From: Sphaerolaimus hirsutus
Lineage: Eukaryota > Nematoda > Chromadorea > Monhysterida > Sphaerolaimidae
NCBI GenBank assembly: GCA_964036195.1
Contig: OZ038451.1
Coordinates: 24,073,927 to 24,137,926 of the forward strand
Length of the DNA stretch: 64,000 nucleotides
Reading direction: 5' to 3'
Shown: in pieces, positions 8,101 through 59,600 of the stretch
Position numbering within the stretch: position 1 is the stretch's first letter
Layout: the number at the start of each line of letters is the position of its first letter
Notes under the pieces: generated by a model
Told to the model about the DNA's origin: nothing
Database searches by the model: none
The model's input: only the letters and a program-made list of their open reading frames with translations
Program-made: the position numbers and the translations under genes

Positions 8101-11100
8101 GTAAGACTAATGTACACACATTACACAGTCGTTCACGAAGTTGGATTGGCAATTGTTCCAATCTTTTATTCCCAGCTTTAACTAGGCTATTCACATTGAT
8201 TTCCGTCCCTCTCCAAAGCCTTCACCCCCCCCCCCAATCCAGCCCTCAGCGGTAGTCCTGTCGCGCGGCTGGCGCTGCCTCGACTGCACCGTGTGCGAGG
8301 GCTGCGGCTCGGGCGGCGACGAGTCCCACTTGCTGCTGTGCGACGAGTGCGACGTGAGCTATCACAACTATTGTCTGCAGCCCCCGCTGGAGAAGGTGCC
8401 CGACGACGCGTGGAGGTGTAGATGGTGGGTTGGTGTGCAGTTGGAATGGAGTTTTTGGGTAGTTCACTGTGGAAATGGCACTCGAATGGCATCGTAGCTA
8501 TGCACAAAGCAGGGGGCGTTGCAGAACTGGACGGTGGAATGAAATCCCCTGCCCTGTTAAGTGTAAAATCATTGTGTAAAGTGTCAAATGTCATTCAAAA
8601 AAGGTTTAATTTTGAACTGAAAATTACTAAATGTGAAATCCTGAAAGGTGAAATACTGAAATTTTGCATGATAATAGATAAATTTGTATGACATTTTACA
8701 TAACATTTTAAACTCGACTTGCCATTTTACAGGACTCGGGACTGGCACCTGACTACCTGTTATTTAGAATGATAGTGTTTTGTAATGTAATTTTAATGTA
8801 CTAATTTTATCTTCAAACAACACCGTCAACAATTCCATAAAATTGTAAATCAGAAAATGCACCCCTCGATACTTTTTTTCAAGAAAATATCGAACCGATA
8901 CTGAACAGTATTCTTTTTATGACAAAAACCATGCACTAAATAAAAAATAAAACGCAGGTGCGCCGCGTGCGCTCGCTGCAAAGCCGCCTTGCCGGCGACC
9001 GGTCGAAATCAACGCCAAGATGGCCCGTTCAGTTTGTGCAATCCATGCGCCAGTCTCCGCCGCTGTCCGAAGTGCTGTATTTTTTATGGTGAACAGGAAC
9101 CGATCATCGAGTGCCAGACTTGCAAAAGGTGATTTTGGATATATTGTTTCTAAAAAAGTGGCTTAGATATAAACTGTTCTCCAACCCTAAATATACTTAG
9201 CGTACCGCGCAAAGTACGCGCTCAAAGTTACTTATGTCTTAGTCGATAACGCGCGTGCAGGATTCTTATGTAGGCACTTTCAGAAAAAGAAAAAGAAATT
9301 TAAAAAAGGGCGGAGTCGCGTACAACGTTTTTCCCGGAACGTTCTTTCTTTTTTCCGGACAATTTTTATTTTATAAATGATGACGTCATGATAAAGAGTT
9401 TCCTTCAGAATAATGCATAGCGTGCGGCCGCCGAGTATACATTTAAACTCTTCGCAGATGGATGCACACGAAATGCGAGGGTCTGCGCGGGGAGGAGGCC
9501 ATCGAAAACGCTTGCCACGTCGGTTTCCAGTGTTCTACGTGCCGGCCGGACGTGGCCGGCGTGAGCAACACTTGCGGCGGCTTCATGGGCGCCGGCGGCA
9601 TGTTCAATGGTCGGTTTGTGTGGCGGTTGAAGTGAATGCGTGTCGCCTCACGGAAGCCTGCTCGGCATATTTCTATGTTAATTATAGAAGTCCATTTCAG
9701 TGCGAAAAACAGGTGCAAAGCCAAAAAATTGCACTTTGACGAAATTTGCAAGCGGCACGTTACAGCGTCACTTTAGGTTCATCTGGTGCCACGCCAGACC
9801 CTGTAGAATGTGAAATGTCATGCAAAGGTCAAAAATCATGTAAAATGGCAAACTCGTTTGCCATTTTTCAGGGCATTTTGCACCACTTTTGACACTTTGC
9901 ATGACATTTTACAGGGTCTGGCAATGTCCGCAGTACTATTTCGAAACTGTAAGCCAGCTAAATTCGCACACAGCACCAAACGCAGAGCGCGCGGTCGAAT
10001 TCCTGCTGGACGGCGCGTCGGTGACCAAGTCGGGCATGGACGCGGTGCAGCGGCGCAAGTTGCGCGCGCCCTCGCCCGCCGCCGAGTTCGCCCAACAGCA
10101 ACAGCTGCAGCAGATGCACATGCGCGGCCCCATGCCCGTGGTGCAGCGCCGCGCGCTCAGTATGACCGTTGGCGGCTTGCCAGGGTCTTCTATGGGTTTG
10201 TTTTTCTTACTTTAAAGTCGATTATAAATTAAGTTTTCATGGTGTAGAATGAAGAAAAGAACGGGATAATAACTAAAAATAGATTAAAATGACCTGGAAT
10301 GGGTGAAAAGTAGCTGAAAATAGGCATGTAAGTACATAGCTATTTTATCCGAAAATATCGATTATGAAGTTTCGTTAACAAATGCGATTAAAAATGCAAA
10401 AATGTGAAAAATTTGAAGGTTTTGGGTGAAAATTTGGCAAAATCGCTCACTATGTTCACCATAAATGGAAAGATAGCTGAGCCAAGGGGGGGGGGTGTTG
10501 ACGGGGCCCCCGTTCACCGGGCTCCGTATACAATCCGCCCCCCCCCCGCTCAAAAATCCTGGCTACGTCCCTGGTAGTAGCCAAAATATTTTGCCAGGGA
10601 TAGATAGCTGAATGGCTTCCGTGCTATTTATATAGATAGATAACTGGCCGGTTTGGGGGGGGGGGGGGGAGTCTAATTCTTTATTCTCATGATGTGCGAT
10701 ACTCACTCCGTTCATGTTTGCATGCAGGCATGATGGGTCAATCGATCGATCAACAATCCGAAGCGATGCTCAGCGGTTTGGAACGGGAAGATGGTGAGTC
10801 AACTTATCTTGGTGGGAAAAAGTCCAATACTAAAAAGCCCCAAACTTCGCAGACTGCGCCCTGTCCCAATCCGTAGACGATCGCCAGTCTTCCATAGGCG
10901 AGAACGACTCGGAGTTGAACTTCTCTCAACAAAGTTGCGGCATGGCGTCGGTGTTCGGCGGCGCCGGCGTGCCCGGGTCCGTAGTTGGCGGCTTTCCAAC
11001 GGGCGCTTGGCGCGGTGCCAGGGGCGGCGGCGGCAGGGGCGGCAGGGTCAGCAAGCTGCACAAGATGGGCGTGGGCGGATTCGTGCTCAGGCCCAGCAGG

Positions 11101-23100: not shown

Positions 23101-26100
23101 CTCGGAAACAATTCTGCCCTCAACTTCTGTCATAAAAACACGTTGCCAAACAGTGGGGCGGGGGGTTGTGAAGCTTTTAAAGTTGACATAAATATTGACG
23201 AAATTTATGATTTAATAACTACATACTTTTTATAAAGTACACAATTTTTATGTAAAAATGCAAACATTTGTGACTTATTTATTTACTTAATTAACAATCT
23301 CCACAAGTCCAACCCCAATCCACCAGAATGGACGCCAACTGAAACAATTCCGCCACTACCTGCGGCCAACCGCCCTCAAACGCCCACCAAAGAAGACTGG
23401 CTTGCCCTGGCCAGACAAGAGGCGGACCAGCGCACCGTGCCCGTGGCGATCACGCTGAGCGTGAAGCACATGAACAACGTGCGCCACGTGATGAACACGT
23501 TGGCCGCGCTGTTGAACGTGACCGAGCCGATCGAGTACAAGGTCGAGTTGGAAACGCCCCCTGGCACGCCTAGGCCTAATGGTGAGGTGTTCTTGGGGCA
23601 CCCACGCCAACCCTGTGAAGTGTGAATGAAGTGTCAAATTTTGTGTATAATGTCAATTAAATTTTAAAAATTGTTACTGAAATTAGGATATTTTGCATCA
23701 CATTTGACACTTCACTTTACACTTTACAGGATAATTTATGGGACTGCCATCTTTTGTCACATTTGAGGCTGTTTCCTTCTTTTCAAATTACCGACTTATG
23801 TATCCAAATCATGTCAGATGAAATCGGAGTTGCGACAGACAGCGAGCAGCAGCCGTGCCGCGGCTGCGGGCGACTTATCACAGTGGCACAAGCGGGTGTG
23901 CAGCGGCGACTGGCCGAGATGGGCCTGACGCCACAGAATGAGGTTTGTGCACTTGAGGGCTGAAACTCTCGGTGCATCTAGACTCCCTGTGCATGTAGAC
24001 TCCCTGTGCATGTGTGCACCTGTGTTAGCGGTGCGGCGCGGCCGCAACTTTATTAATATGAACATGTATAAAAAACTTTTTCTTTATTTACCCCCCCCCC
24101 GTGGGATGTGTGCATTTGTAAATATTTTCGTATTTATATGCAAAATGAAAATTTCGGTATTGAAAATGAAAATCAAAGATTTCGATTTGCATATAAATAC
24201 AAAAAAAATATTCACAAATGCAAACACTAGTCGGAAATGTCAAAAATGTGGACCGAAATTTTAAATAACAAATTTCATGCAGCCCTCTGCGCCGCAAAGC
24301 GAACAGGTTGCACACATGCTATCTATCTATCTGGAGTGGTTTTTGAGAAATTTTGCCCCAATTTTCGCCAAAAATCACGAATTTTCGCACCTTTTTATAG
24401 GTTTTCACCTTCAAAATTGTGGTCTCCTGCTATATGCCTGTTTTTAGCCATTTTAAACCTACTTTGACCACTTTTAACCAATTATTAGCGATTTTTTCCC
24501 CTTTAGGCATTCTATGCACTGAAAAAGCCTATATACAGGGGTGGGCATCTTCAGTTACCGCTGGGAAAATGCGATAGATTGAGCTACGGTTGAGCTATCG
24601 GAATGAAATTTTAACACAATGGAGTAGACTCCATAGGACACCTATTCTGAAGTTTGCAACCCAAACGGCCACATTTTGGGTGAATAGTGGAACACACGGT
24701 TTTTAGTGTAATTTTGTGACTTGGCGTCACCCATAGGATAAATCGAGGGTGGCATTTGAGGGGGGGGGTCATCGGTCGTTGGTGTCGTCCCATTCTGTCG
24801 TACATCGGCCGATTTTGATGCCCTTTGAGTATGTTGTGGTCGCGCCTACTACCAAATTCTTTTTTTACTCGAATAGTCCCCCAGTCCCGAGATAAGGGAG
24901 GTGAAGTCACAAAATTACACTAAAAACTGTGTGTTCCACAACTCCTCCAAACTGTGGCCGTTTGGGTTGCAAACTTCAGCATAGGTGTCCTATGGAGTCT
25001 ACTCTATTGTGTTAAAATTTCATTGTGATAGCTCAACTGTAGCTCAAGCTATCGCGTTTTTCCAGCGGTAACTGAAGATGCCCACCCCTGTATTTTGCCC
25101 CCGCGAGCCTACATGCACTGAGAGTTTACGTGCACTGAGGCACAGGCTCCTTTTGAGTTGTCATTCTAATTATGCTTTTATGTTTTGTAGTTCTACGCTT
25201 TTACTGATTTTTATGTGCAGGACCGGGATGACACCGCGCTGTTTTGCATGCCGCGGTGTTTTTTCGACTTTGCGGCGGCGCATAAAGTTAACCTGAGCCA
25301 TAACGATTTGAAGGTTTCTTTCACATTTTTTATCCATTTTTCCTACTTAGCGGCATATGCGCTATGAACAAAACCACATCACCGCGCAGCTCGCATCCGA
25401 AAACCAGTCCTCCCTTAACTTGGACACTCGACGCAAACTGCAGTCGCTCCACCCCCGCCTGTTCGCCGTGGGCGGCCCCAATGCCGGCGAAACACCGGCG
25501 TCTATAACCGACATAGTCGATCGGGTGGCCGCGTCGGTGCTGCACCAAAATCAGAGCGCGCAGCAGATGGACGACGTGATCGACCGGGTTGCTGGGGGGT
25601 TGGCGCACGGCGCCGCCACGCTGCCCTACGCCGCCGCGCCCAGGTGCCAGTCCCAGACCCTGTAAAATGTCAAATGTCATGCAAAGTGTCAAAAGTCATG
25701 TAAAATGGCCGGTAAAATGGCAAACGTACGTTCGCCATTTTACCGGGCATTTTACATGACTTTTGACACTTTGCATGACATTTGACATTTTACAGGGTCT
25801 GGGACTGCCCCCAGGGAAGACTGCGTGCACGTGCGCGACCTGGCGCCCTTGCCCGCCAAGGACATGGACGCCATCGAGCTGCGCCAGTTGGAGCTGTGCG
25901 GCTACGGCTGCAGACGCGCTTCAGCTGATGGGCTGGCCGACGCTTCCAGTGCGCCCAGTGTCAGTGCCGTGCCACTGGTTAAGGGCCCTGCTAAGTGGAA
26001 GGGTGTCTTGTGGAAATTCACGGATAGAGAGCTCAGAGCTAGCTTTGATAAGCTTAGGACGGATTTGGAGAAGGTAAATTTGTATTTCAAATGGATAATA

Positions 26101-29100
26101 GTACTTGCCGTACCTAGGGTGACAATATAGTTTTTTTATGGGAAACAGAAACGTAACAAAAATTTCGCACTTGCCGAAAAACGCAAAAGGAAATTGGAGA
26201 GAAAAATATTAATTGTATCGAAACGGTGAAAATTTGCTGAATTTTTGGTAGAAATAGGAAAAAATTGCTGTAATTTTTTGCAAACTTGAATAATGTACAT
26301 TGTTGAAAAACCGGCATGCAAATTTACCAGTGGGGCTGAAACAGAAAGTTAAGCCAGAAAATGGAAAATAATTCGGAAAAAAAAACAGAACAAAATTGCC
26401 GGAAAATGGAAAATGAGGTGGAAAAAAGAAAATTTGTTGGAAAATGGAAGATGAGGCGGGGAGAAAAAAAAACAGAAATTGAGCCGAAAAATTTGACACC
26501 CTAAGTAACCCCTACCAGCTTGCAACCTCCACATACCCCCCCCCCCCCGCAGCTACTCACCGCGAACAACGCGATGCTGCAGTCGCCCTTGTCTCAGTCT
26601 ACCCGCTGCGAGGATCGCCGCCGGTGCGCCCTCTGCGATGGGGAAGGCGACGCCCCGGCCGGGCTGGCTGGACGGCTGCTGAATTTGGACGCCGCTAGCT
26701 GGATTCATGTTAATTGTGCGCTGTGGAGTAGTGAGGTGAGTGTTTGTTGTGTGTTGCGAGGTTTTGGATGTGATTTTTGGCGAGGGTCCACTGCCTGATG
26801 AAGGTGTACTCGATCACACAGCATTAAAATATTTGGGAAATTTGTATTTAAAATCTCAGAAAATATAGAAGATTTTTTACATTTTTTTGAATTTTCCGGT
26901 GAAATTTTATATTATTTTTGAGAGATTTTATATCAGAAAATCTCTCAAAAAGTAATATTTATATTCTATCAAGGCCTTTCAAAAGATTTTATTTTATTTT
27001 ATTTTTGAGAAATTCGTCCGAGAAATTTATATTTGATCATGTTATCCCAAAATCGCCCGTCTCGTCACCGCTAATCACACAGTCACACAGCCATAGTCTC
27101 TATTCTCCGCAGGTCTACGAAACCATGTCCGGCGCTTTAGTAAACTGCGAGGCGGCCGTGCGCCGCGCCAACGAGGTCTCGTGCGTGGAGTGCGGCCGCG
27201 TGGGCGCCAGCCTGTCGTGCTACACCGCCGCCTGCGACAACAAGTATCACATGCCCTGTGCGGTTCAGGCCAAGGCCGTTTTTCTCAGGGATAAGGTGTG
27301 TTCGATTGGATAATTCGATTTGATCAATCTTTGGTATTTCTATGGTTTTCACTGGTACCAGGGACGTACGCAGGATTTTTGAGCGGGGGGGGGATTGTAT
27401 ACGGAGCCCGGCGAACGGGGGCCCGCCCTAAAATTTGGCTCTATAGTAAAGGAATGAAGCCATGGCGCTGGCGCCATTTGTAGGCGCCAGCGCCATGGCA
27501 GTGTTGGCGTTGGCGCCAACGTCTACCATATAGGCAGGGACGTATCCAGGATTTTTGAGCGGGGGGGGGCTGTTTGTTTACGGAGCCCGGCGAACGGGGG
27601 GGGGGGCTCAGCCCCCCCCCTAAAATTTTACCTGTACAGTGGCGGAATGGCGCCATGGCGCTGGCGCCATTCGTAGACGCCACGCCATGGCGCCATTGGC
27701 GTTGGCGCTGGCGTCATGAACCGCTGATATGTATGTAAATATACATACATATGGAGAGATGGGCACGAAATTAAACGTACTTTACAGATATTTGAGGGTA
27801 CAGGTGCCGATTTTCCAATAATCCCGTGGACGGTGGAAAAATGCGCGCTCGCGCGCAAAATTTTTACATAGCACCTTGGGAATTAGTACCGAAAACGGCA
27901 TTTTCCTCGATTTTTTCCGGTCTCACCCGGGAACGGGGGGGGGGCTGCAGCCCCCCCGCCCCCCCTGGATACGTCCTTGCATATAGGTATCTATTTATAC
28001 CTATATATGGTACTAGGTCCGCTTTTGTCACTGTTGGACACTTTTCAAGTGCAATTTGACGTACATATCTGAAAATACATATTAAAGATTTGCGCGCCTG
28101 CGCGCCAAAAAAATTTTCAAAGTGCCCACAAGTTCGCCTCAGAAAAGTGCCATTTCTGGCAAATTTTTCTGTCCGGCCCGGGAACGGGGCGGGGCGGCCC
28201 CCCCCCGCCCCAGGGGTCTCCAGGATTTTGGCCCTCGCGGGGGCTGGATAGATAGCAAATCGCTCCTCCGGAGGGATAGATAGCTGGAAAAATTTTCTGG
28301 GGGGGGGGGCTGGCGGGGGCACAATATATAGGCTTTTTCAAGGTTAAGAAGGCAGAAAGGGGAAAAAATCGCTAATAATCAGTTAAAAGTAGCCAAAAGT
28401 AGGTACAAAATGGCTGAAAATAGGTATATAACTGTGTATATAACCGAAATACACGATTTTGAAGGTGAAAAACTATAAAAAGGTGCGAAAATTGGTGATT
28501 TTGAGCGAAAATTGGGGCAAAATTTCTCAAAAACCACTCCAGATAGATAGATAGCTGAGCGATTTGGGGGGGGGGGTCTTTGGGGGTAGTAACCAAAAAT
28601 TTTGCCTCGGGATAGATAGATAGCTGAGCGGCCTCCGGGATAGATAGATAGCTGGCCGATTTGGGGGGGCATACTTTCCCATATTTTCTATAGTTATTTT
28701 CGAAATAATCGAAAGTTGATGCGATGTAAATATATGATGTGATGATGTCGCCGAGCCCTAAGAAATATGAATAATATATTTAACAAATATTTGCATTTTC
28801 AAAAATAACAGACGGTTTTCTGCGCCGAGCACTGGCCCACTAATGCGGTTGCAAATCAGATTGAAGGTGGCCAAATAATCAGACCGCCCACAAACATGGT
28901 GCTGACAAAATTAGCCGTCCTTAGGAGAGTTTACGTTGAGAGAGATGAGAACAGACTTATCGCCAAGTTTGTCATTTTATTCATCGCATGATTTGTTTTG
29001 TTAGCTTTAAAATCTTCAAAAATTCTGAATTTACAGGCTATTCCAACAAGGCGACAGTGGAAATTTGGCGTTGCGCGCGGGCACATTGTTGCTGCATCAC

Positions 29101-32100
29101 ATTGGACAGCTACTGCCGCATCAACTCAAAGCATTCCACAACAGAGATTATATTTTCCCGGTACGAGTAGTTTTCCATAACCTTTAGAGCTTTTTAATAG
29201 CGACATCTGGTGCCACTCCCAGACCCTGTAAAGTGTAAAAGACACTGTAAAATGTCATGTGTCATGTAAAAGACCCTGTAAAGTGTCAAATGTCATGTAA
29301 AAGAACCCTGCAAAGTGTCAGGGGTGTCCAAATCTTGTTTTATCGCATCCAAATCTTACGTTTTTGTATCCAAAATAAAGATTGGGATACAACAAAAAAC
29401 ATAAGATTTGGATACGATAAAATAATATTTAGAAAATATGACATTTTACAGTGTCTGTGAGTGCCCCCTGGGCGGTGCTATCCACTGACCATCATCTTGT
29501 GATCACCGCGCAAAGACGGGTCCCCTTCTCTCAGTCTGGCTACGACGTGACGCGCATCTTCTGGTCGCCGAACAGCGCCAACACGCGCGCCCTGTACCGG
29601 TGCACGATCGGCGAGCGCGACGGCGCCGCCGGCCCGCTCTTCTCGCTCGCCTTCAAGCCCGAGCCCGACGTGGACCACGTGCTGCGCGTCAAGGAGAGCG
29701 GCGCCACGGCCGCGTGGCAGAACGTGCTCAATCCGTTGGAGCGGCTCAGGACCAGGCACAATCAGCTCAAGCTGTTTTCGAGGCACATGGCCGGCGAGCA
29801 CTTGTTCGGCTTGAATGAGAGCGCCGTGACTAAGATGATTGAATCCGTGAGTAGAGTGCTATAAATCTAAAGGGATTTATATTTACTTTTAAAAATTATA
29901 ATAATTTGTTTACATTTTCGCCGGGTGTTTCAGGAGAGATTCAAATATATTTATTAAATGAGGGAAAAAAAAATCAAAAATTCTCGCATTTATATTTATT
30001 TATATTTTCCCTGTTTTTTTCAGAGATATTAAATTACATTTTATTTCTGATATATTTGTCAGATTACATTTAATTATATTTTCTGAAAAGTATTTTTAGG
30101 TACATAGTTACAATAGTCTCACAACTTCAGGCGCACCCCCATCCTTCTCTCATCCCATCACACAGATGCCCGGCGTGGACACGTTGCTCACCTACCAGTT
30201 CAAGCACGGCGGCTCGCCGCTCATGGACCTGCCGCTCGCCGTCAACCCCAGCGGGTGCGCTCGCTGCGAGCCCCGTTTTAGAACCTATATAAAACAGCGG
30301 CCGCTGCCGCACTCGGCCGCGCTCAGTCCCAAGAGAAATCCTACACAACAGAATAAGGATAATAGCATTGGAGGTGGGTGGGCAGTGGAGTGTTTTGTTT
30401 TAGGATTGAGGTTTTTTTAAACAATTTTAACGTGAGCTACCGGAGATGGGAATAAAATTTCAAAACGATATCGTCGATTTCAATAATCGATAATCTTTAG
30501 GTATTTCGACATCGATACTCGTAAAAATATCCACATGGTTCCAACGGCTCTGTGTCTGTAGACATGTAAATTCGCTCAAGATGTAGGTACTGGTATACAA
30601 CGATGTTTATATCCCAAAATAGAAATTGCAAAAAAAGCAAAAAGGGTGAAAATTGGCAAAAAAATTTTTTAACAATTTTGAGTGAAAATGTGGAACAATC
30701 GCTCAAACCTGCTCCACGTAATTAGATAGATAGTGGAGCGATTTGGGGGAAATGCGAAAGTAGCAAAATAAAAATTTCTCAGAATACATAGATAGCCCGG
30801 AAACGGGTCTGCGGGGTGGATAGATAGCTGGCCGACTAGGAGGGGGGGGGCGTTAGGGGTAGGGTTCAAACGGGATCCCGATCCCGGATCCCGTGAAATT
30901 CCGGGATTTACCAGTCCCGATCCCGATCCCGAAACCCCAATCCCGATCCCGATCCCGAAATCTCAAAAATACCAATCCCGATCCCGAAAGTTTTCAAATC
31001 CCGATCCTGATCCCGAGAAACTCCCAAGTCCGGGATCCCGATCCCGGAAAAATTAGTGGAAATTATAAAAAGTGAAATAATGACGTTTTTGCATGCAAAA
31101 AAGTGGGTGCAAACCCCCAGCGTCAATTTTATGCCACTTTTCTGGCATCCAACAGTGTTTTGAGACCTTTATGAACAACTGTGAATGCCAGAAAAATGGC
31201 CAAAATCCTATCCCTAGAACCCAATCCCGATCCCGGAAAAATGCCTATCCCAATCCCGATCCCGATCCCGTGACCCCAATCCCGGCCAATCCCGATCCCG
31301 ATCCCGAAATCTCAAAAAACCAATCCCGATCCCGATCCCGAAACTCCAATCCCGATCCGGATCCCGAAATCTCAAAAAGTGAATCCCGATCCCGATCCCG
31401 AAAAGTCAATCCCGTTTGAACCCTAGTTAGGGGCACCTGCAACGTTTCCACATGTCCAGTGGGTTGACATGTCTAGGAAGCCTACGTCGGTTCCAATCTC
31501 ATCCATCACCCTCGTACAGGTCCCGTAGCCACCACGTCCAGTCAGCGGTCGGAGCGGGCGGCACGCAAAAGCACGGGCCCTCCGGCGCCGGCGCAGCTGA
31601 CGCACGCCAGCGAGTACCAGGCCATTTTGGCCGCCTACGGTTATGGTTGGATGGACCATCCATTTGTCGTTGTTTTGTGCATCCCCTTGCAGATTGTGGA
31701 TAAGCTAGTGCATTTGCGTGTGTAAAAAGAGTTGTGCAGAGTTGTAACTGGCCAGCTATTTCCAGTTTTATAATGTTATCGTTTCTTTGAATCAGCAGCA
31801 AATGCTTTCAAGGACGAATCTGATAAATACAATGGTGGCCTACACACTAGTTGACACATGTGTGTCAACTGGTCGTTGTTAAATCAAATTTCGGCATCGC
31901 GTATCGCAGAGCGATCTTTCAATGCACTTGCCGTAATATTTCAACGTTGCCCATGTGCATTTGGAGATCGCTCTGACACGTGAAGCCGAAATCAGAGTTG
32001 ACACGGATCAATAGACGCACCTGTGTCAACTAGTTTGCGGACCGCCAATAAAGCACTGATAGCACTCAAATACATGGTTACATTGGTTTACATATGCAAA

Positions 32101-33487
32101 TGTCTACGCTTGTGCACGTGCTGTGTTTTAATACCTTTGGTTACGGTATTTTTTGTCGCTCACAGGCTCACAGTACGAGGTGCCCACGTCGCAAAAATGG
32201 TCGCAATACAAGAAAATGAAAGAGGAATGGCGTAACACGGTTTATTTGGCGCGCAGCCGCATCCAAGGCCTGGGTTTGTTCGCAAAACGTCACCTGGAAA
32301 TGGGCTCGATGATTATCGAGTATATTGGGGAGTTGATCAGGAATGAGGTGCGTGCTTTTTTTTGCACGTTGGACAATTTAATGTATTTATCTGGAACGTA
32401 ACAACGGATCTGTGACAACTGTATCTGGCAGCGTAAATATAACTTATTTAAACAAAAATCTATCGGCAGAATCAGTCTGGATAATGAAGTGGTCGAATTG
32501 ATGTGAATATTGAAAGAGTGACCCTAAACAATCTACACTGGAAAACTGCAATTTCCAAAGCTAATCAATTTGTTTAAAACTCATTTTAAAGTTTACCAAA
32601 AAAGTAGTCCGTCAACTAGTTGACGGAAATAAAAATAATGATTGAAACTCAAGTGTGCTCAAAACAGATTTGTCAATTTTATCAATTCATGTTGTCAACT
32701 AGTGTGCTTAGGCCCAACAATGCATTAGTGTCAACCAATCCGCAGCTGGCGGAAGTGCGCGAGCGGCGCTACACGGCTCGCAACGTGGGCGTGTACATGT
32801 TCCGCATCGACTCGGAGAGGGTGGTGGACGCGACCATGGCGGGCGGGCCTGCGCGCTATGTGAACCACAGTTGCGACCCCAACTGCACCACTGAGTTGTT
32901 GCGGCTGAATAATGGAGATATCAAGATCATTATCAAGGCTGCTCGGCCGATTGGTAATAGTGAAGAGGTGAGTCGCCGTTTTACCGGTTTTCCTCGAATT
33001 ACCAGCAGGGGGGCTTATTTTTTCAGTGTAAAAATTTTGAGGGGTTGTATTATTTCATCAGAAATTTTTGAGAAGTTCGTGGTAAAGAATACGCTGTTAC
33101 ATATCCAAAACCGGTGATTAGTGTGACCAAATAGGATATATGTGGACTTATCAACGTACGCCGCTACACTAACTACTAGGTATATGTGTAGCTGTGATGC
33201 AAATTGGCAACAATTAATACATAATGTATTTACACTGCATGCATGATGTACATCATTCCAGCCCGGGGGTATTTTTTCCTCAGCTCGAAAAGACCTTTGG
33301 GTATTTCGGGATGGGGATATTTGGAGGAAATACGGTATTTCTATAACTAAGGGTCAAAATGTAAAATAAATTGCCATTTATTTTATTTTTTCAGCTCACT
33401 TACGATTACCAACTCGAGTTTGAGGATGGACCCAACAAGATTCCATGCATGTGCGGTGCGCCGAACTGCAGAAAATGGATGAATTAA
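484..33487 (+). CDS. KMT2C/D: KMT2C/D (MLL3/4)-type histone H3K4 methyltransferase, 5'-partial, about 53 exons
   Basis: The product would be the catalytic subunit of a COMPASS-like nuclear complex that methylates histone H3 lysine 4, mainly at enhancers. Domain order in the sequence matches KMT2C/D and no other KMT2: ePHD1-PHD1-3, PHD4-6, HMG box, coiled coil, ePHD2, FYRN, FYRC, Win motif, SET, post-SET. Exons placed: 484-655, 1690-1811, 2008-2133, 3160-3371, 3666-3786, 4244-4434, 4496-4593, 4979-5070, 5272-5319, 5402-5525, 6827-7006, 7328-7548, 7637-7741, 8243-8424, 8958-9128, 9458-9609, about 9974-10195, 10728-10793, 10853-11170, 11573-11721, 11983-12207, 12469-12536, 12726-12871, 12942-13297, 13386-13790, 14763-15073, 15587-about 15815, 16919-17126, 18101-18253, 18698-18907, 19223-19390, 19867-20077, 20347-20485, 20843-21021, 21258-21437, 21673-21840, 22087-22327, 22593-22750, 23327-23581, 23818-23942, 25221-25313, 25351-25643, 25815-26073, 26553-26735, 27113-27295, 28812-28966, 29037-29160, 29535-29846, 30166-30373, 31520-31645, 32166-32347, 32746-32967, 33395-33487. 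About 3,200 residues are visible, against roughly 4,900-5,500 for human KMT2C/D. The start lies upstream of the window. Phases agree at nearly every junction; exons 16/17 and 27/28 are unresolved. Confidence 0.95.
1085..1665. mobile_element. hAT-like MITE, CAGAGTTGTTA family, GTACGCG arrays
   Basis: Termini are CAGAGTTGTTAAAA and TTCTAACAACTCTG, with perfect 8-bp duplications CAAAAAAT at 1077-1084 and 1666-1673. Subterminal arrays are TACGCGTACG-type. The right end is 24 bp from the exon 2 acceptor, and the duplicated CAAAAAAT lies directly before its C-rich tract. Confidence 0.85.
1812..2007. mobile_element. Introner-like MITE forming the whole intron 2 of KMT2C/D
   Basis: The upstream exon ends ...CGCCAG and the element starts GTGCCAATCCCAGACCCTG; it ends GGGTCTGGGACTGCCCCCAG directly before the next exon. 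Splicing GT...AG at these points restores WRQ-VCHVC of ePHD1 in phase 0. The interior is a long imperfect inverted repeat built of TGACATTTTACA-like units. Both flanks carry CCAG, a possible 4-bp target duplication that also supplies the AG of the acceptor. The whole 196-bp intron is therefore the element. Confidence 0.9.
2324..2987. mobile_element. hAT-like MITE, TAGGGTTGG family
   Basis: Termini are TAGGGTTGG and CCAACCCTA, with duplications GTTGGGTT and GTTTGGTT (one mismatch). Subterminal DNA is runs of AAAACG/CGTTTT. The core has TATATAGGTATATCAGACA and GCGCGCTTTCGCGCGAAAAT. It lies in KMT2C/D intron 3. Confidence 0.85.
3160..5070 (+). CDS. KMT2C/D: KMT2C/D exons 4-8: end of ePHD1 and PHD fingers 1-3
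   Basis: Exon 3160-3371 finishes ePHD1 and encodes PHD1, with CAKCDEGG, LFCAACFNRYHGRCL and RAGWQCADCKLCQQCG. Exon 3666-3786 gives PHD2, with MLVCDACHKAYHTYC and HAWKCK. Exon 4244-4434 gives QCRQCGDCGSR, CDSCYQQRNKGLFCPVC and QCKSCMK. Exon 4496-4593, after a 61-bp intron, completes PHD3 with VHFECD and YTCPMCNQTPG. The Cys/His spacing and the RAGWQC and CYQQ signatures match KMT2C/D closely. Exon 4979-5070 is a short charged linker that must leave through donor GTTCGT at 5071 to keep frame. Read-through would stop at 5110, in TGTTTGA. Confidence 0.93.
4093..4198. repeat. TACCGTATTT palindromic element
   Basis: TACCGTATGTCTTCGGAATA at the left pairs with AATTCGAGGAAATACGGTA at the right. The element lies in KMT2C/D intron 5 and ends about 45 bp before the next exon. 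Terminal TA could be a TA target duplication. Confidence 0.7.
4649..4950. repeat. TACCGTATTT-family element, KMT2C/D intron 7
   Basis: The left end reads TATTTGCTCGGAATTAATTC and the right end ATTCAAGCGAATACGGTA. The interior has the TTTCGTCAAATTTTCTACC and ACTTTATTTACACAATAACATG segments typical of the longer subfamily. Confidence 0.7.
5272..7548 (+). CDS. KMT2C/D: KMT2C/D exons 9-12: basic and Gly-rich linker before PHD4
   Basis: These four exons (5272-5319, 5402-5525, 6827-7006, 7328-7548) encode low-complexity linker. Recognisable pieces are PHLFDIPGRSPFLPRGG, then a basic run GRGSGKGRRGRAAS that aligns with the KVGRGSG...KRRPRG stretch of human KMT2C. The end VVVAKADDQFVFSR sits exactly where KMT2C has a VVLFSSSDKF segment before PHD4. 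Splice phases run 0, 1, 1, 0. The linker is much shorter than in vertebrates, which accounts for part of the length difference. Confidence 0.85.
7637..9609 (+). CDS. KMT2C/D: KMT2C/D exons 13-16: PHD fingers 4-6
   Basis: Exon 7637-7741 starts PHD4 with DICVICGSFGKDEEG and CSQCGQCYHTYC. Exon 8243-8424 (acceptor CCAG before CCCTCAGCGG) continues with VVLSRGWRCLDCTVCEGCG and the PHD5 core LLLCDECDVSYHNYC. Exon 8958-9128 gives WCAACARCKA, LCNPCASLRRCPKC and IIECQTCKR. Exon 9458-9609 completes PHD6 with WMHTKCEGL and FQCSTCRPD. In KMT2C/D this triple finger reads histone H4 tails and supports nucleosome methylation. Phases 0-2-2-1 are consistent. The donor at the last exon is either GTCGGT (9610) or a downstream GTGTGG, which affects the next junction. 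Confidence 0.93.
7786..8071. repeat. TACCGTATTT-family element, KMT2C/D intron 13
   Basis: It starts TACCGTATTTGCTTGCGTAA and ends ATTCAAGGAAATACGGTA. The core is homologous to 4649-4950 (ACTTTATTAACACAATAAGATG). Confidence 0.8.
8541..8750. mobile_element. Introner-family MITE, decayed, KMT2C/D intron 14
   Basis: The left end resembles CCCTGCCCTGTTAAGTGTAA and the right end CATTTTACAGGACTCGGGACTGGCACCTG. The interior has diverged copies of the TGTCAAATGTCAT units and an A-rich centre. It lies wholly inside the intron and does not touch either splice site. Confidence 0.65.
9785..9933. mobile_element. Introner-family MITE at the 3' end of KMT2C/D intron 16
   Basis: The left end is GGTGCCACGCCAGACCCTG and the right end CAGGGTCTGGCAATGTCCGCAG, immediately before a sequence in the coding frame (YYFETVSQL). 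The element end may supply the acceptor for exon 17. Phase from donor 9610 instead favours CACACAG at 9973, so acceptor use is undecided. The hairpin arms are complete. Confidence 0.8.
9934..12871 (+). CDS. KMT2C/D: KMT2C/D exons 17-23: linker with conserved Gly-Gly-Phe and basic/acidic motifs
   Basis: Exon 17 reads AVEFLLDGASVTKSGMDAVQ, matching the TESGM region after PHD6 in KMT2C. Its start is either 9934, just after a transposon-derived CCGCAG, or 9974 after CACACAG; only 9974 fits phase 1 from donor 9610. Exon 10853-11170 has MGVGGFVLRPSRQRQ, matching the human GIGGFMVRQRSR motif. Exon 11573-11721 has KTRKKRRSKRSQLEDSFP, and 11983-12207 continues with EHFFGTDQL; together they match the conserved KRKNKLEETFP...FFG block. 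Exon 11983-12207 ends in ten consecutive Gln. Exons 12469-12536 and 12726-12871 are acidic, ending DGDIRDIIGA, comparable to the human DDDILGIISDDL region. Confidence 0.85.
12942..13790 (+). CDS. KMT2C/D: KMT2C/D exons 24-25: polyglutamine/polyalanine tract
   Basis: Exon 12942-13297 begins DIDEGDPFISNLSSD, then a proline run, then long Gln-rich sequence. Exon 13386-13790 is Gln- and Ala-rich (12 Ala in a row) followed by HMQHMPGQVHEQHAAMYGR. Both are in phase 0 or 1 agreement with neighbours. Gln tracts are typical of KMT2C/D linkers. The pure CAG/CAA runs make this a likely site of length polymorphism. Antisense frames across it are Cys- or Leu-rich shadows and are not genes. Confidence 0.85.
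13900..14530. repeat. GATAGATAGCTG-family element, KMT2C/D intron 25
   Basis: It has several GATAGATAGCTGNGCGGTTTGGGG blocks and the core GATATATAGGCTATTTCAGG, homologous to 28245-28680. It fills most of the intron between the polyQ and HMG exons. Confidence 0.75.
14763..15815 (+). CDS. KMT2C/D: KMT2C/D exons 26-27: HMG box
   Basis: Exon 14763-15073 ends with ERWEMDEPLGENATIAAV and NLNAPHLK. Exon 15587-about 15815 reads TSFPNWSERVKQISKLWRSL followed by DATERQRYVQMARDNRAQNK. This aligns closely with the KMT2C block KWEKEEALGEMATVAPV...FPDWTTRVKQIAKLWRK, the HMG box. The junction is phase 2 and in frame. The 3' end is uncertain. The donor GTTTTT at 15816 gives phase 0, whereas the next recognisable exon needs phase 2, so another donor or an unseen small exon is required. 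A hAT-like element (15836-16569) is inserted just inside the intron. Confidence 0.88.
15836..16569. mobile_element. hAT-like MITE, CAGAGTT family, GCGTAA arrays
   Basis: It starts CAGAGTTGTTAAAATACC and ends CGCAACTATG, with perfect duplications GGTGCTAG at 15828-15835 and 16570-16577. Both ends carry many GCGTAA/GTAAGC repeats. It sits about 20 bp after the end of the HMG-box exon. Confidence 0.87.
16919..18253 (+). CDS. KMT2C/D: KMT2C/D exons 28-29: Gln-rich segment
   Basis: Exon 16919-17126 reads MGMSAGTPTMTEQQQQQ, then FKVPQTPRPMQSPVPVVG and a run of Gln. The TPRP motif recalls the many TPRP repeats of the same region in KMT2C. Exon 18101-18253 reads APIAANLQLEQVRLPQRP and a Gln/His-rich tail. 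Its acceptor (GAATGAAG at 18093-18100) has a weak pyrimidine tract. Donor GTCGGT at 18254 gives the right phase. Confidence is lower because these sequences are of low complexity. The exon 27/28 phase conflict is described with the previous block. Confidence 0.7.
17358..17926. mobile_element. hAT-like MITE, TAGGGTGTCAAA family, CGGAAAA arrays
   Basis: It starts TAGGGTGTCAAAAAAG and ends TTTGACACCCTA, with perfect duplications ATCGTGCG at 17350-17357 and 17927-17934. Nearly the whole element is tandem CGGAAAACGGAAAGGTAAAA. A related decayed copy lies at about 26115-26503. Confidence 0.88.
18698..19390 (+). CDS. KMT2C/D: KMT2C/D exons 30-31: conserved coiled coil
   Basis: Exon 18698-18907 encodes LLQRAHQLDCQQKEIEQRVA, then LLKKQKRPLAARARQAKK. 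Exon 19223-19390 encodes LRRLTAAITAAGRQLDEVKR and HARENAAKLHDIQQTR. This matches the KMT2C segment with KSKKALSAKQRTAKKAGREF and VQKQLEQIRKQQKEH, a long amphipathic helix. Both introns are phase 0. The charged heptads and the KxxLxARxRxAKK core make the assignment firm even though identity elsewhere in this linker is low. Confidence 0.87.
19867..20485 (+). CDS. KMT2C/D: KMT2C/D exons 32-33: basic KKRRRRRKRDEFG motif and following segment
   Basis: Exon 19867-20077 contains GKKRRRRRKRDEFGNLVPLD and DSPPGSG. It corresponds to GKKKRTRKKKRDDD...TPHSDITAPPTPG in human KMT2C and would serve as a nuclear-localisation-type basic patch. Exon 20347-20485 (ASDWPPVDRDACFILDEIVD, then VVKRVDGPAAMIIGD) joins in phase 1 and ends in phase 2. 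I do not recognise a domain in it. An intron-resident MITE begins about 27 bp after this exon. Confidence 0.75.
20513..20703. mobile_element. Introner-family MITE, decayed, KMT2C/D intron 33
   Basis: The ends are TGTCCTGCACCATGTAATG and CTTTACATGGTGCGAGACTGGCACTAG. The arms contain GTCAAAGGTCATGTAAAATG and ATGACATTTTACATTACAC. It starts about 27 bp after the exon donor. Confidence 0.65.
20843..23581 (+). CDS. KMT2C/D: KMT2C/D exons 34-39: KR motif, LLFDPPQ segment and conserved beta segment
   Basis: Exon 20843-21021 has the basic patch PPVKKRPRKQKPKGPQDLL. Its donor is either GTGCCA (21015) or GTTGGA (21022); only the latter fits the next exon. Exons 21258-21437 and 21673-21840 are Pro/Ser-rich. 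Exon 22087-22327 has RPLFKEFELYERHKNIRLAF and LEILRAW. Exon 22593-22750 has YGGRPESPVELLFDPPQFFS, like the SPESVVGVE...P segment of KMT2C. Exon 23327-23581 contains VPVAITLSVKHMNNVRHVMN, aligning with ISVAITLHPTAAENISSVVA of KMT2C upstream of ePHD2. All junctions are phase 1 or 2 and consistent. Confidence 0.82.
22796..22933. mobile_element. Introner-family MITE, KMT2C/D intron 38
   Basis: It runs from GGCGGTCCCGCATCATGTAA to CTTTACAGGGTGCTGGACTGACACCAG. The hairpin arms carry ATGTCAT and its complement. It ends in CACCAG, an acceptor-like terminus, but the coding exon begins about 390 bp later. Confidence 0.7.
23595..23748. mobile_element. Introner-family MITE, KMT2C/D intron 39
   Basis: It runs from GGGGCACCCACGCCAACCCTG to CACTTTACAGGATAATTTATGGGACTGCC. 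It begins 13 bp after the donor and occupies two thirds of a 236-bp intron. Confidence 0.7.
23818..26073 (+). CDS. KMT2C/D: KMT2C/D exons 40-43: Cys pairs and KWKG segment before ePHD2
   Basis: Exon 23818-23942 has PCRGCGRLITVAQAGVQRRL and exon 25221-25313 has DRDDTALFCMPRCFFDF. Together they match WCCHCKVVILGSGVRKSF...DIVFCSNNCF of KMT2C, a split zinc-binding pair. Exon 25351-25643 is a linker with two related DRVA segments. Exon 25815-26073 contains AKWKGVLWKFTDRELRASFD, comparable to KWRGMKWKKWS. The junction 25643/25815 is AG|G in phase 2 and the intron between them is exactly one transposable element. All other junctions in the block are phase 0. Confidence 0.87.
24536..25090. mobile_element. 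Long-inverted-repeat element with TA flanks, KMT2C/D intron 40
   Basis: CAGGGGTGGGCATCTTCAGTT at the left pairs with AACTGAAGATGCCCACCCCTG at the right, flanked by TA on both sides. The arms stay similar for about 200 bp (TAGGACACCTATTCTGAAGT against ACTTCAGCATAGGTGTCCTA). There is no transposase, so it is non-autonomous; TA flanks suggest a Tc1/mariner-type mobiliser. Confidence 0.85.
25644..25814. mobile_element. Introner-like MITE forming the whole intron 42 of KMT2C/D
   Basis: The exon ends GCGCCCAG and the 171-bp intron runs from GTGCCAGTCCCAGACCCTG to GGGTCTGGGACTGCCCCCAG. Removing it gives AG|G and reads PYAAAPREDCVHVRD in frame. The two arms (about 80 bp each) are nearly perfect inverted repeats around a short spacer containing ACGTACGT, so the transcript would fold into one hairpin that brings donor and acceptor together. 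This is the least decayed copy in the window and so probably among the youngest. Confidence 0.93.
26115..26503. mobile_element. hAT-like MITE, TAGGGTG family, decayed
   Basis: It starts TAGGGTGACAATATAG and ends TTTGACACCCTA. The interior has degraded GGAAAA/GGAAAATGG repeats. No clear 8-bp duplication remains. Confidence 0.65.
26553..28966 (+). CDS. KMT2C/D: KMT2C/D exons 44-46: extended PHD finger 2
   Basis: Exon 26553-26735 begins the finger with RRRCALCDGEGDAPAG, then RLLNLDAASWIHVNCALWSS. Exon 27113-27295 continues VYETMSGALVNCEAAVRRAN, with SCVECGRVGASLSC and YHMPCAVQAKAVFLRDK. Exon 28812-28966 closes it with TVFCAEH and leads into VLRRVYVERDEN. The order C4-H-C2-H with ALWSSEVYE is diagnostic for the ePHD next to FYRN in KMT2C/D. 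Introns 1 and 2 are phase 0; the last exon ends in phase 2. All key Cys/His are present. Confidence 0.95.
27535..27979. mobile_element. hAT-like MITE, CAGGGACGTATCCAGG family
   Basis: It starts CAGGGACGTATCCAGG and ends CCTGGATACGTCCTTG, with perfect duplications CATATAGG at 27527-27534 and 27980-27987. G/C homopolymer runs lie under both ends. The core has GCGCGCTCGCGCGCAAAAT. A left-end fragment of the same family lies just upstream from 27359. Confidence 0.9.
28245..28680. repeat. GATAGATAGCTG-family interspersed element, KMT2C/D intron 45
   Basis: Blocks of GGATAGATAGCTGGNNGATTT followed by G runs flank a core with TATATAGGCTTTTTCAAGG and AGAAAATTTGCCCCAATTTTCGC-like sequence. Related copies: 10210-10680, 13900-14530, 24305-24535 (reverse orientation), 30600-30850 and 49150-49260. 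Confidence 0.75.
29037..30373 (+). CDS. KMT2C/D: KMT2C/D exons 47-49: FYRN, FYRC and WDR5-binding (Win) motif
   Basis: Exon 29037-29160 encodes LLLHHIGQLLPHQLKAFHNR and DYIFP, the start of FYRN. Exon 29535-29846 continues SGYDVTRIFWSPN, then the start of FYRC with EHLFGLNESAVTKMIES. Exon 30166-30373 has MPGVDTLLTYQFKHGGSPLM followed by LPLAVNPSGCARCEPRF. FYRN and FYRC fold together in the family. The GCARCEP sequence is the Win motif that docks in WDR5; the human proteins have GCARSEP, so the Ser is Cys here while the essential Arg is kept. Splice phases are 0, 0, 1. Confidence 0.95.
29209..29469. mobile_element. Introner-family MITE with inner insertion, KMT2C/D intron 47
   Basis: The left end is GGTGCCACTCCCAGACCCTG and the right end CAGTGTCTGTGAGTGCCCCC. 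Inside the arms is a second small palindrome, near 29328-29430, based on TCCAAATCTT...AAGATTTGGA, which looks like a later insertion. The intron acceptor (29534) lies outside the element. Confidence 0.75.
30860..31425. mobile_element. hAT-like MITE, TAGGGTTCAAACGGGATCCCG family
   Basis: Termini are TAGGGTTCAAACG and CGTTTGAACCCTA, with perfect duplications GTTAGGGG at 30852-30859 and 31426-31433. Each end carries arrays of CCCGATCCCGAT. The core has a segment with CAAACCCCCAGCG and TGGCATCCAACAGTG. It lies in KMT2C/D intron 49. Confidence 0.92.
31520..33487 (+). CDS. KMT2C/D: KMT2C/D exons 50-53: SET and post-SET domains, stop codon
   Basis: Exon 31520-31645 is a linker. Exon 32166-32347 encodes the SET start, with NTVYLARSRIQGLGLFAKR and MIIEYIGELIRNE. 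Exon 32746-32967 has GVYMFRIDSERVVDATMAGG and ARYVNHSCDPNC, including the NHSC cofactor-binding motif. Exon 33395-33487 has LTYDYQLEFEDG with the catalytic-site Tyr, and the post-SET IPCMCGAPNCRKWMN with three Cys, then TAA at 33485-33487. Every residue expected in an active H3K4 methyltransferase core that I can recognise is present, so the enzyme should be catalytically competent. Confidence 0.97.
31838..32040. repeat. CACTAGTTGACA inverted-repeat element, KMT2C/D intron 50
   Basis: CTACACACTAGTTGACACATG at the left pairs with GTGTCAACTAGTTTGCGGACC at the right. The interior has CGCAGAGCGATCTTTCAATG and its partner GGAGATCGCTCTGACACG. Confidence 0.75.
32980..33334. repeat. TACCGTATTT-family element, KMT2C/D intron 52
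   Basis: The left end is TTACCGGTTTTCCTCGAATTACC and the right end TTTGGAGGAAATACGGTA. It separates the last two coding exons of the SET region. Confidence 0.65.
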
Positions 33488-40165: not shown

Positions 40166-40350
40166 GGTGCCACTCCCAGACACTGTAAAATGTCATTCAA
40201 TCATCGTTCATTGGATGTTGTCTGCCCCGATCAATCAAGCAGGGTCCATTGTTGCCAGCAACGTTTGCCATTTTGCGGGACATTTGCCGTTTTGCATTTT
40301 ACATGACTTTTGACACTGCGTGACATTTTACAGGATCTGGAAGTGCCCCG
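40166..40350. mobile_element. Introner-family MITE 5' of the TASOR-like gene
   Basis: It runs from GGTGCCACTCCCAGACACTG to CAGGATCTGGAAGTGCCCC. The right arm has TGACTTTTGACACTGCGTGACATTTTACAG. It lies about 290 bp upstream of the proposed ATG; whether it is promoter, 5' UTR or an intron in the 5' UTR cannot be told. Confidence 0.75.
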
Positions 40351-56600: not shown

Positions 56601-59600
56601 GTCCTGAGCAACTACGGCCGCGAGCTGGACAAGCTGCACCGGCAGCCATCGCAGGCCGACCAGAGGGTGGCTTTTGAGATGCAGACGGTGGGTTACTGTT
56701 GATTTATAACTAAAACTTTGATCGGTCGCACACTTTAAGGCGCATCACTTTAGGGCAGTTTTAGGGCCCACACACTAGTTGACATCGCAATTTCGTGTCA
56801 ACTGAATGTCAACTAAACAAAAAAATTTAAGCATAGCGCGTAAAACAGAGACAATGGAAATTGTGTTACTATTATGATGAACTGCCCTGCCACAGGAAAG
56901 TTGAAATCACATAATTAATCAAAAGTCAGTTGATTGAATAGAAGCGAATGTTCATGTAAACTAGTGTATGTGGGCCCTCAGGATCAGTACAAAAACACAT
57001 AGTCATGCATAATTTATTTTGAATCCACCTTGCACCGCAGCGTTACATCTACGAATTGGATCCGGACACGAATATCCCGGAAGAGCGACCGGGCCAGATT
57101 TTGCCACTTTTTGTACTCTACTGGAGGGCTTCGTCACCATACAAACTGACATTGTGCGTTGTGTTATTAAATATTTTTAGCGCCACTTATACAGGCAGTG
57201 TTCCTGTAAGTAGTGATGGAATGGCGTCATTTGAGTGGGCCGCGCCATGGCGCCTTTTTCCATGGCGCCAATTTTTGAAATGGCGCCATTTTTCCTGCTT
57301 TTTACCATCACTACCTCTAAGTACCTAATCGTGAACTTTTTCCTACAGCGCGCCCAGTCAGTGCAGTTCGGTGTGGAGCGGCCAGTTGGCCATCAAGCGC
57401 CGGCCCGACACCGTGGCCGTGTCCGTCATGTCGCCCACCATGCGCAGGAAGCTCACCGACTTGTAAATTACTTGTTTTGGCCAGGGGGATCTTCCAGACC
57501 TCTGGAAAAATGCTCTGTCAAATGTCGTGTAAAAAAGGAGTTTGCCATTTTACATGACTTTTTACACTTCACATGACATTTGACATTTGACATGACTTTT
57601 GGGACTTTGCATGACATTTGACTTTTTACAGGGCATATTGCATGACGTTTGATCTTTTGCATAACATTTGACATTTGACATTTTACAGGGCATTTGCCAG
57701 GTCATGTCAAAAATCCTCGCAAATGTGGCATCTCTCCTTTTCAGTGGCTCCAGCGGGCAGTTGACTTTGGAGTGCCTCATTCCAGCGGTTCACGTGGCGC
57801 TCGCCTGTCCTGAGGTGGCTGAATTGTGCCAATTGGGGTCGTTTGCTCCAAATCTCAAAACTCTCGATTCTAACTATTCTTCGTGGTGCGTCTGTGGCGC
57901 CGTGTCTTTGGTTTCCCACACACTAGTTGACATCAAAAAAATGTCAACTCAATTCAACTAGATTTTGATTAATTCTGTGATTTTAACATTCCTATGTGAC
58001 AGAGCATTAGGTTATTTTGGATAGTGACACTTGATTTTCATTGTTTATGTCAAGTGTCATACTTTTTAAAATTATTTGGTGGACATTCAGTTGACATTGT
58101 TTTGCGATGTCAACTAGTGTGTGTGGCCCCTTTGCGACATGATTTCTTTCTAAAATTCATTGTATTTCTTATCTAACATTACCAAATCATTTTCAGGCGC
58201 AATGTCGAGAAGATGACTTTTCCGGCGGACCCATTCAGGGGCAAGAAATTGCCCACGCTTCTAACTGCCTGGGTGATGTACAAAAATCACAATATTACGG
58301 ACGACAAGAAAGTTTGGACGCGCCTGCTCAACACAATGTCTAGCAAACGCCTGGTTAGATATATTGTCTTGGTGTGTAGTTAATATTTACCAACTGCCTT
58401 TGTCTGCTAAGCGAGGATCAAACTGACCTTCAATAACATCCAGGGAATGTGACTCATATAAATGTGACATAAAAACAGCAATTTCGAAAAGCATGTGGTG
58501 TACAACTGAAACAGACGCATATTGTTTTCTACGTATTCTCTTAAGTAGCATATAGCATCTTGATAAAAAAATTGCAATTACCTACTTCCCCTTTTTAATT
58601 ACTCACTGGTCGAAAAATTCCGACAGAAACAAACCCTCGGGGACTTATTTAAGTGCATACTTTAGCACCCTCTCCACCCTCCCCCATCCCCCAGGCGGCC
58701 ATAATCGACCTGGGCAACTGCGACCGGATGATCTGCGTGCCGCTGGGCTCGTGGCTGGCGCTGGCGGCGGGCGCGCCGCACGGCGGCAAGGAGTCTGACG
58801 CGTCGCGCGGCCTGCTCTGCCTCGCCTTCACGCTGCCCATGGGTATCACGGGCGGCGGCGGCAGCAGCGGACAAGTGCACCTGTCGTGAGTGCTTGTTGG
58901 GGATTGTTGTGCTTAGGGTTGAAAAAAAAACGTTTTTTTAACTCGATGTTTTTTTTATAAAAAAAACGTGTTTTTTTAAAAGCTCCCAGAGATGACCTAG
59001 TGTCAACATATATAGGTATATCAGACACTGGCAATACTCTGTGATGTTAAATATGACCATATAATGGCTGTGGAGCCATCGGATAGCATTATAAGTGGTG
59101 ATTTGTGTCAAAAATATCCATTTTTCGTCGACATATCGTTCGTATATTGCCTTATAGTCGAATGTTCGTGACCTCAGGTAAAGTTTGGCACGGAATGGTG
59201 ATCAAACAATGTTATAAAAGGAGGTTGTTACTTTGGGAGTGAAGTTACACATTGTGGAGGTACATGGAAGCACATTACCTCAATATTATATATTACAGCA
59301 ACATATGTCAGCTTATTCACCCATGGTAGCACATAGAAATGAATGTTTTGATACTAAAAATGCAACAAAACCAATGAAAACAACCACCAATGTCAATTTG
59401 TGTGTGAAATTGCGCGCTTGCGCGCAAAAATTTTGCAAAATACCTAGTGCTTAGTACTAAAAATTCCAGCCGATGTTTTTTTTTATAAAAAAAACATTTC
59501 GGACGTCATGTTTTTTTTTAAAAAAAAAACGTTGTTTTTTTTAAAAAAAAACGTTAAAAAAAAAACATCGGCCAACCCTAGTTGTGCTGCGTTGTGTTTG

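Follow-up and report, generated by a model that had tools for sequence, protein, structure and literature searches.

The origin of new introns has long been a question in biology, particularly where animals are concerned. Introners derived from DNA transposons were reportedly described from protist hosts by Huff et al. 2016; in these, the target-site duplication (TSD) is said to give one splice site and excision to restore the exon, as proposed here, and the elements are said to differ from the CWG family of the present study. A later introner paper reportedly deals with horizontal transfer. According to the sections of the survey by Gozashti et al. 2022 (PMC9860276) that were available, introners are short repeats that create introns by insertion into exons, and many of them carry terminal inverted repeats (TIRs) and TSDs. 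The same sections describe an aquatic bias and name introners in two animal groups only. Animal introners are rare but already published (PMC9860276); in the initial annotation of the present locus, they had been described as known in a few animal groups. One introner family of Chrysochromulina possesses its own 5' splice site and obtains the 3' one from the TSD (PMC9860276, Fig. 2C legend). Among transposons, the NuwaI group of PHIS/Harbinger elements has a 5'-CWG-3' TSD and TIRs that usually begin with GGG, and the available part of its description records the group in 16 animal genomes but in none of the other kingdoms (PMC4482050).

In the present study, we analysed a window of 64,000 nucleotides from the nematode Sphaerolaimus hirsutus, in which the interval 25644-25814 had been proposed to be an intron made up exactly of a transposable element. 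The features of this interval are given below, in window coordinates.

25351-25643, + strand: upstream part of the host exon, an open frame following an AG at 25349-25350 (boundary set by eye)
25641-25643, + strand: left TSD, CAG, the final 3 bases of the upstream exon part
25644-25811, + strand: MITE of 168 bp, a near-perfect palindrome, with left end GTGCCAGTCCC (putative donor GT) and right end GGGACTGCCCC
25812-25814, + strand: right TSD, CAG, the putative source of the AG acceptor
25644-25814, + strand: predicted GT-AG intron of 171 nt
25815-26073, + strand: downstream part of the host exon, followed by a GT at 26074-26075 (boundary set by eye)

The terminal sequences in direct reading were GTGCCAGTCCCAGACCC (25644-25660) and GGGTCTGGGACTGCCCC (25795-25811). 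The two inverted-repeat arms (25639-25727 and 25728-25816) were 89 nt each, 94% complementary and without a spacer, in line with the near-perfect arms noted initially. In the unspliced interval 25351-26073 there were two in-frame stops, both within the element. Removal of 25644-25814 cleared them and left 184 codons open across the junction ...AAPR|EDC..., which reproduced the uninterrupted frame (APR-EDC) of the initial annotation. Direct reading of the ends also bore out its coordinates and its placement of the intron start at the first base of a terminal repeat. The intron end had been assigned to the last base of the other terminal repeat, but this assignment was incorrect: the final CAG is the right TSD copy, outside the element, and therefore the predicted intron consists of the element (168 bp) plus the TSD (3 bp). 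The introner reading was retained in an amended form; the repeat, the frame restoration and the other copies argue for it, with the acceptor located in the TSD and not in the element.

The likeness to the NuwaI group lies in the CWG TSD and in the right TIR, which, read inward, begins GGGGCAGTCCC (GGGGCAG). Unlike the usual GGG start, the left TIR begins GTGCC (GTGCCAG), so that positions 2 and 4 differ and a donor GT is made. Splicing goes unmentioned in the available part of the NuwaI account (PMC4482050). In comparison with the Chrysochromulina family of Fig. 2C, the arrangement is similar in that the element here would carry the donor and the TSD would lend the acceptor; as described in the accessible sections, however, that family has a TSD of 4 bp and no TIRs, whereas here the TSD is 3 bp and mostly CWG and the element is a near-perfect palindrome (PMC9860276). 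Compared with the introners covered by those sections, the present family differs in having over a thousand exact left ends in one animal genome. A literature search at the level of titles and abstract openings found no CWG or Harbinger-type animal introner among the matches listed.

To determine the size of the family, the genome (348 Mb, 762 contigs) was searched. The exact 23-base left end occurred 649 times after CAG and 563 times after CTG, and the reversed control occurred 0 times in each case. Since the left end with CAG is found 649 times exactly and its reversed control 0 times, the repeat is not a product of chance. When one mismatch was allowed, the CAG left-end pattern gave 3160 occurrences, CTG ones included, and the reversed control again gave 0. 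The CAG and CTG left-end totals were similar (difference, P 0.015). With the intron as query, a DNA search listed 80 matches, in which about 40 scored places, out of 1827 candidates, appeared once in each orientation; with the self match excluded, these were 90-97% identical, some being shorter than full length, and the copy next to that at 25644 was 97% identical to it. Among 43 deduplicated CAG-left copies having a right end, the right flank was CAG in 35, and the other 8 right flanks were CAT, CCT, TCA, CCA, CCC, CTG, AGG and TAG. The flank pairs among copies were CAG/CAG, CTG/CTG, a few CAA/CAA or CAT/CAT, and some unequal ones. The 3-bp CWG TSD typical of NuwaI/PHIS elements was thus observed both in the copy flanks and in the exact CAG and CTG left-end counts. 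Ends of the hAT type (CAGTCCC termini with an 8-bp TSD) were ruled out by eye, as the flanks of the copy at 25644 and of the copies compared with it share 3 bp and not 8. The 21-base element end had no exact match in viral contigs.

Two further features of the flanks were observed. Five loci (L011, L012, L015, L026 and L032) had CTG on the left and CAG on the right, that is, mirror-image flanks, which possibly arose by conversion acting from one arm of the palindrome on the other, or which reflect bias in the search query, which ended in CAG. In addition, the element together with its flanks was common to L006, L009 and L010 (contig C4, 17.05-17.31 Mb), to L003 and L004, to L050 and L051, and to L074 and L075, as if these loci had been duplicated after insertion.

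The host gene of the copy at 25644 appears to be KMT2C/D-like, an identity supported by ePHD, FYRN/FYRC and SET matches and in agreement with the initial annotation. The corresponding ORFs and the other family copies in the window are as follows.

1812-2004, + strand: second copy of the family (193 bp), flanked by CAG TSDs at 1809-1811 and 2005-2007, splitting an ePHD finger
26903-27313, + strand: ORF of the host gene with an ePHD match (zf-HC5HC2H)
29210-29467, + strand: third family copy, with CTG TSDs at 29207-29209 and 29468-29470, in the FYRN region of the KMT2 gene
29442-29864, + strand: ORF of the host gene with FYRN (part) and FYRC matches
32620-33117, + strand: ORF of the host gene with a SET match
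40167-40349: diverged family copy with unequal flanks (CTG/GTG), no recognised exon tied to it
59880-60090, - strand: diverged family copy with unequal flanks (CTG/GAG), no recognised exon tied to it

The domain order ePHD, FYRN/FYRC, SET is consistent with a KMT2C/D-type gene. Farther upstream, at about 1.7-2.2 kb, the strand of these ORFs carries another ePHD finger, and this finger, split by the copy at 1812-2004, is taken to belong to the same gene as the copy at 25644. The CTG..CTG copy at 29210-29467 lies inside an apparently normal intron (about 29161-29534, both ends set by eye) that separates parts of the FYRN domain, and is not an introner; the ORF downstream of it matched FYRN positions 34-58 of 60 only. 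Shorter fragments resembling parts of the element were also observed at 9794-9921 and 57544-57690. With the spliced exon around 25644 as the query, a search for proteins yielded no relative (0 of 444 candidates scored), and no homology was found across the junction of this KMT2 copy.

The element is very probably an introner, and would be a palindromic DNA transposon, non-autonomous and belonging to the CWG-target elements (NuwaI-like, PHIS/Harbinger), with splicing as the predicted mode of its removal. Insertion at CWG would duplicate the 3-bp target, and the ancestral left terminal repeat would at some point have gained a GT. In a copy that lies along the gene at a CAG target, the left CAG would serve as the exon end, the first bases of the element as the donor GT, and the duplicated right CAG, preceded by a short stretch of C (CTGCCCC), as the acceptor. 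The spliceosome would then remove the element and one CAG, and the original reading frame would be back. The other configurations of target and orientation would offer no such splice-site pair, and in the copies seen in them the coding-strand bias was absent. Selection against unspliceable exonic copies would therefore lead to a strand bias, with the class totals staying similar.

The donor of this predicted intron, GTGCCA, is weak relative to the usual metazoan consensus. A possible inner donor, GTAAA, was present 18 nt inside the element in 9 of 12 copies examined. Use of this donor (GTAAAA) with the outer acceptor would mean that each insertion adds six codons, and in 50 of 56 CAG..CAG copies the offset of the first GTAAA was indeed in frame; codons added by an introner have been reported for another family in the legend of Fig. 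2F (PMC9860276). We consider this alternative improbable. A common offset is also expected from plain conservation of the terminal repeat, the offset was 19 nt in one Na/K-ATPase copy, which amounts to a frame shift, and L020 had no inner GTAAA. In those copies, therefore, the inner donor cannot restore the frame or is unavailable.

If the proposed GT-AG pair is used, the coding frame should continue across the junction on the strand of the element. We scored this with a codon model that was self-trained on the ORFs of the fetched DNA, the tested locus being left out each time. After excision, the best of six frames was determined in 90 nt on each side, and cases with the same frame on both sides were counted, for which the chance expectation on one strand is about 55/12 = 4.6. 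In CAG..CAG copies, one best frame crossed the junction on the element's strand in 23 of 55 and on the other strand in 2 of 55 (23/55 against 1/12, P 2e-11; 23 vs 2 strand split, P 2e-5). When the join was shifted by 1 or 2 bases, the count on the element's strand fell to between 1 and 5 of 55. The results indicated that excision restored the pre-insertion frame in the copy at 25644 and in 23 of the 55 copies. A shared best frame was also seen among the 19 CTG-left copies, where 7 had one (4 on the element's strand, 3 on the other), and among the 7 CTG..CTG copies, where 4 had one (2 on each strand), both being small samples. For the CAG-left copies that lack a right CAG, 17 in all, the counts on the element's strand and on the other were 2 and 0 at the true offset, and 4 and 1 at offset -2. 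Because frame agreement also occurs in such background classes, the asymmetry between strands in the CAG..CAG class carries more weight as evidence.

The copies were drawn in part from 50 CAG pattern loci, taken from contig C1 in list order with genes ignored. The remaining ones came from the DNA search, whose query ended in CAG, and from chance finds in the flanks and the window. Before the frame test we excluded 5 of the 50 pattern loci that had no recognisable right end (L044, L055 and L086-L088), L035, and L008 (the same place as L001), as well as copies whose 20-bp left flanks were identical and chance finds that lay too close to the end of a locus. The codon model recovered the correct frame in 4 of 5 KMT2 exon pieces whose frames had been checked by hand; with loci not yet left out, the same model gave 24 of 50 (22 and 2 by strand). 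An earlier codon model was dropped, as it had collapsed onto 12 ORFs. Two simpler measures gave a weaker signal than the codon model: the spanning ORF was longer in the forward direction in 17 of 28 copies and in the reverse in 11 of 28, and the longest-frame test succeeded in 13 of 26 copies at offset 0 vs 6 and 7 of 26 when the offset was wrong.

The strand asymmetry also bears on whether the GT-AG sites drive removal at all. Inverted-repeat transposons are said to be removed from RNA by structure-guided excision, the so-called SOS splicing, which would act here through the hairpin, regardless of orientation and target. Together with its flanks, the RNA of the copy at 25644 folds as a single long hairpin in which the two ends of the copy meet (MFE -144.9 kcal/mol, 191 nt), and the weak donor would suit such a mechanism. 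Nevertheless, orientation-blind removal predicts equal strands, and we observed 23 vs 2 in the 55 CAG..CAG copies, with no strand excess in the CTG-left class (4 and 3 of 19). Hairpin-driven excision is thus rendered quite unlikely, and the preferred explanation is still removal through the predicted GT-AG pair.

Further evidence for this GT-AG reading was obtained from conserved proteins that continue across the junctions. At L065, a Na/K-ATPase alpha gene interrupted by two copies at conserved positions, a 178-bp copy interrupts SLAYEQ|AESDIM; the joined peptide matched the pump without gaps (E 5e-65) over residues 4-146, the junction lying after residue 66. The same locus contains a second copy of 236 bp at SLSQQ|GMTN, where the match was likewise gapless (E 9e-20, residues 2-67, junction after 35). 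The joined peptide of the 1812-2004 copy matched Pfam zf-HC5HC2H over residues 48-137 (E 2.8e-10), the junction lying after residue 80, and, across the junction, chains of PHF7 (E 3e-6), BRPF1 (2e-4) and KMT2D (5e-3). At L090, the match across the junction was to procollagen galactosyltransferase 1 (COLGALT1; E 2e-4), with gaps elsewhere and none at the junction. All four protein-crossed junctions had CAG on both sides and the copy on the gene's strand. With the right TSD, the L065 copies measure 181 and 239 nt, the 1812-2004 copy 196 nt and the L090 copy 180 nt, and retention would shift the frame in three of the four (181, 239 and 196 nt). The search for more introns bounded by this repeat, which the initial annotation had called for, thus produced predicted cases in the KMT2 gene, twice in Na/K-ATPase alpha and in a COLGALT1-like gene, the repeat ends marking the predicted intron ends in several genes.

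The Pfam comparison covered 30 peptides chosen after the translations had been read, with 10 from the first 28 pattern loci, 10 from the 17 that followed and 10 others. Matches above the curated cut-off were found for 4 of the 30 (two from Na/K-ATPase, one with the ePHD and one with a kinase domain), weaker matches alone for 3, and nothing for 23. The kinase match at L031 was not counted as junction-crossing, as it starts 5 residues before the junction; nor was the SIRT6 match at L066, which ends 8-9 residues before it. Two peptides of L005 look PTPMT1-like, which is our assumption. A comparison of the two with PDB gave no match.

Since random breakage would be expected on either strand, the frame test (23 vs 2) and the four protein-crossed junctions, all CAG/CAG and on the gene's strand with two in one Na/K-ATPase gene, leave very little probability for a recent, perhaps heterozygous insertion at 25644 that disables the gene without splicing, despite the young look of this copy (97% identical to the next), the missing homology across its junction, and the prediction of splicing from DNA sequence.

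Taken as an introner family, the CWG elements would have an unusually clear proposed mechanism. More tentatively, and as a possibility that we would put somewhat below even, CWG-target transposons may be pre-adapted as intron makers, in that an exon ending in CAG and an acceptor CAG are both supplied by their TSD. Through a change from GG to GT in one terminal repeat, what had been an ordinary palindromic MITE would then have begun to produce introns in great numbers in an animal, and its near-perfect hairpin may help to pair the weak splice sites. If so, the CTG copies, roughly half of the family, would constitute a built-in non-spliceable control. The two classes of target, one predicted to be spliceable and the other not, occur in similar numbers and provide a natural experiment on intron gain. 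Their comparison bears on the requirements of a newborn intron. Conserved genes are among the hosts (KMT2C/D, Na/K-ATPase), and the copy in a histone-methyltransferase gene makes the birth of a new intron directly testable.

The proteins that might mobilise these elements, in the NuwaI/PHIS case a DDE transposase plus a Myb/SANT protein, were also sought. The genome has 163 DDE_Tnp_4 matches; in the three copies read from these the ends were different, and none of the three was a partner with matching ends. One PIF/Harbinger element was rejected as the autonomous partner, as its ends differ. This different PIF/Harbinger (DDE_Tnp_4) element, seen at L092-L094, had over a hundred similar-scoring matches, and its three copies were 97-98% alike. 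Most of its matches were listed with four internal TGA codons, which perhaps reflect an intron in the transposase gene.
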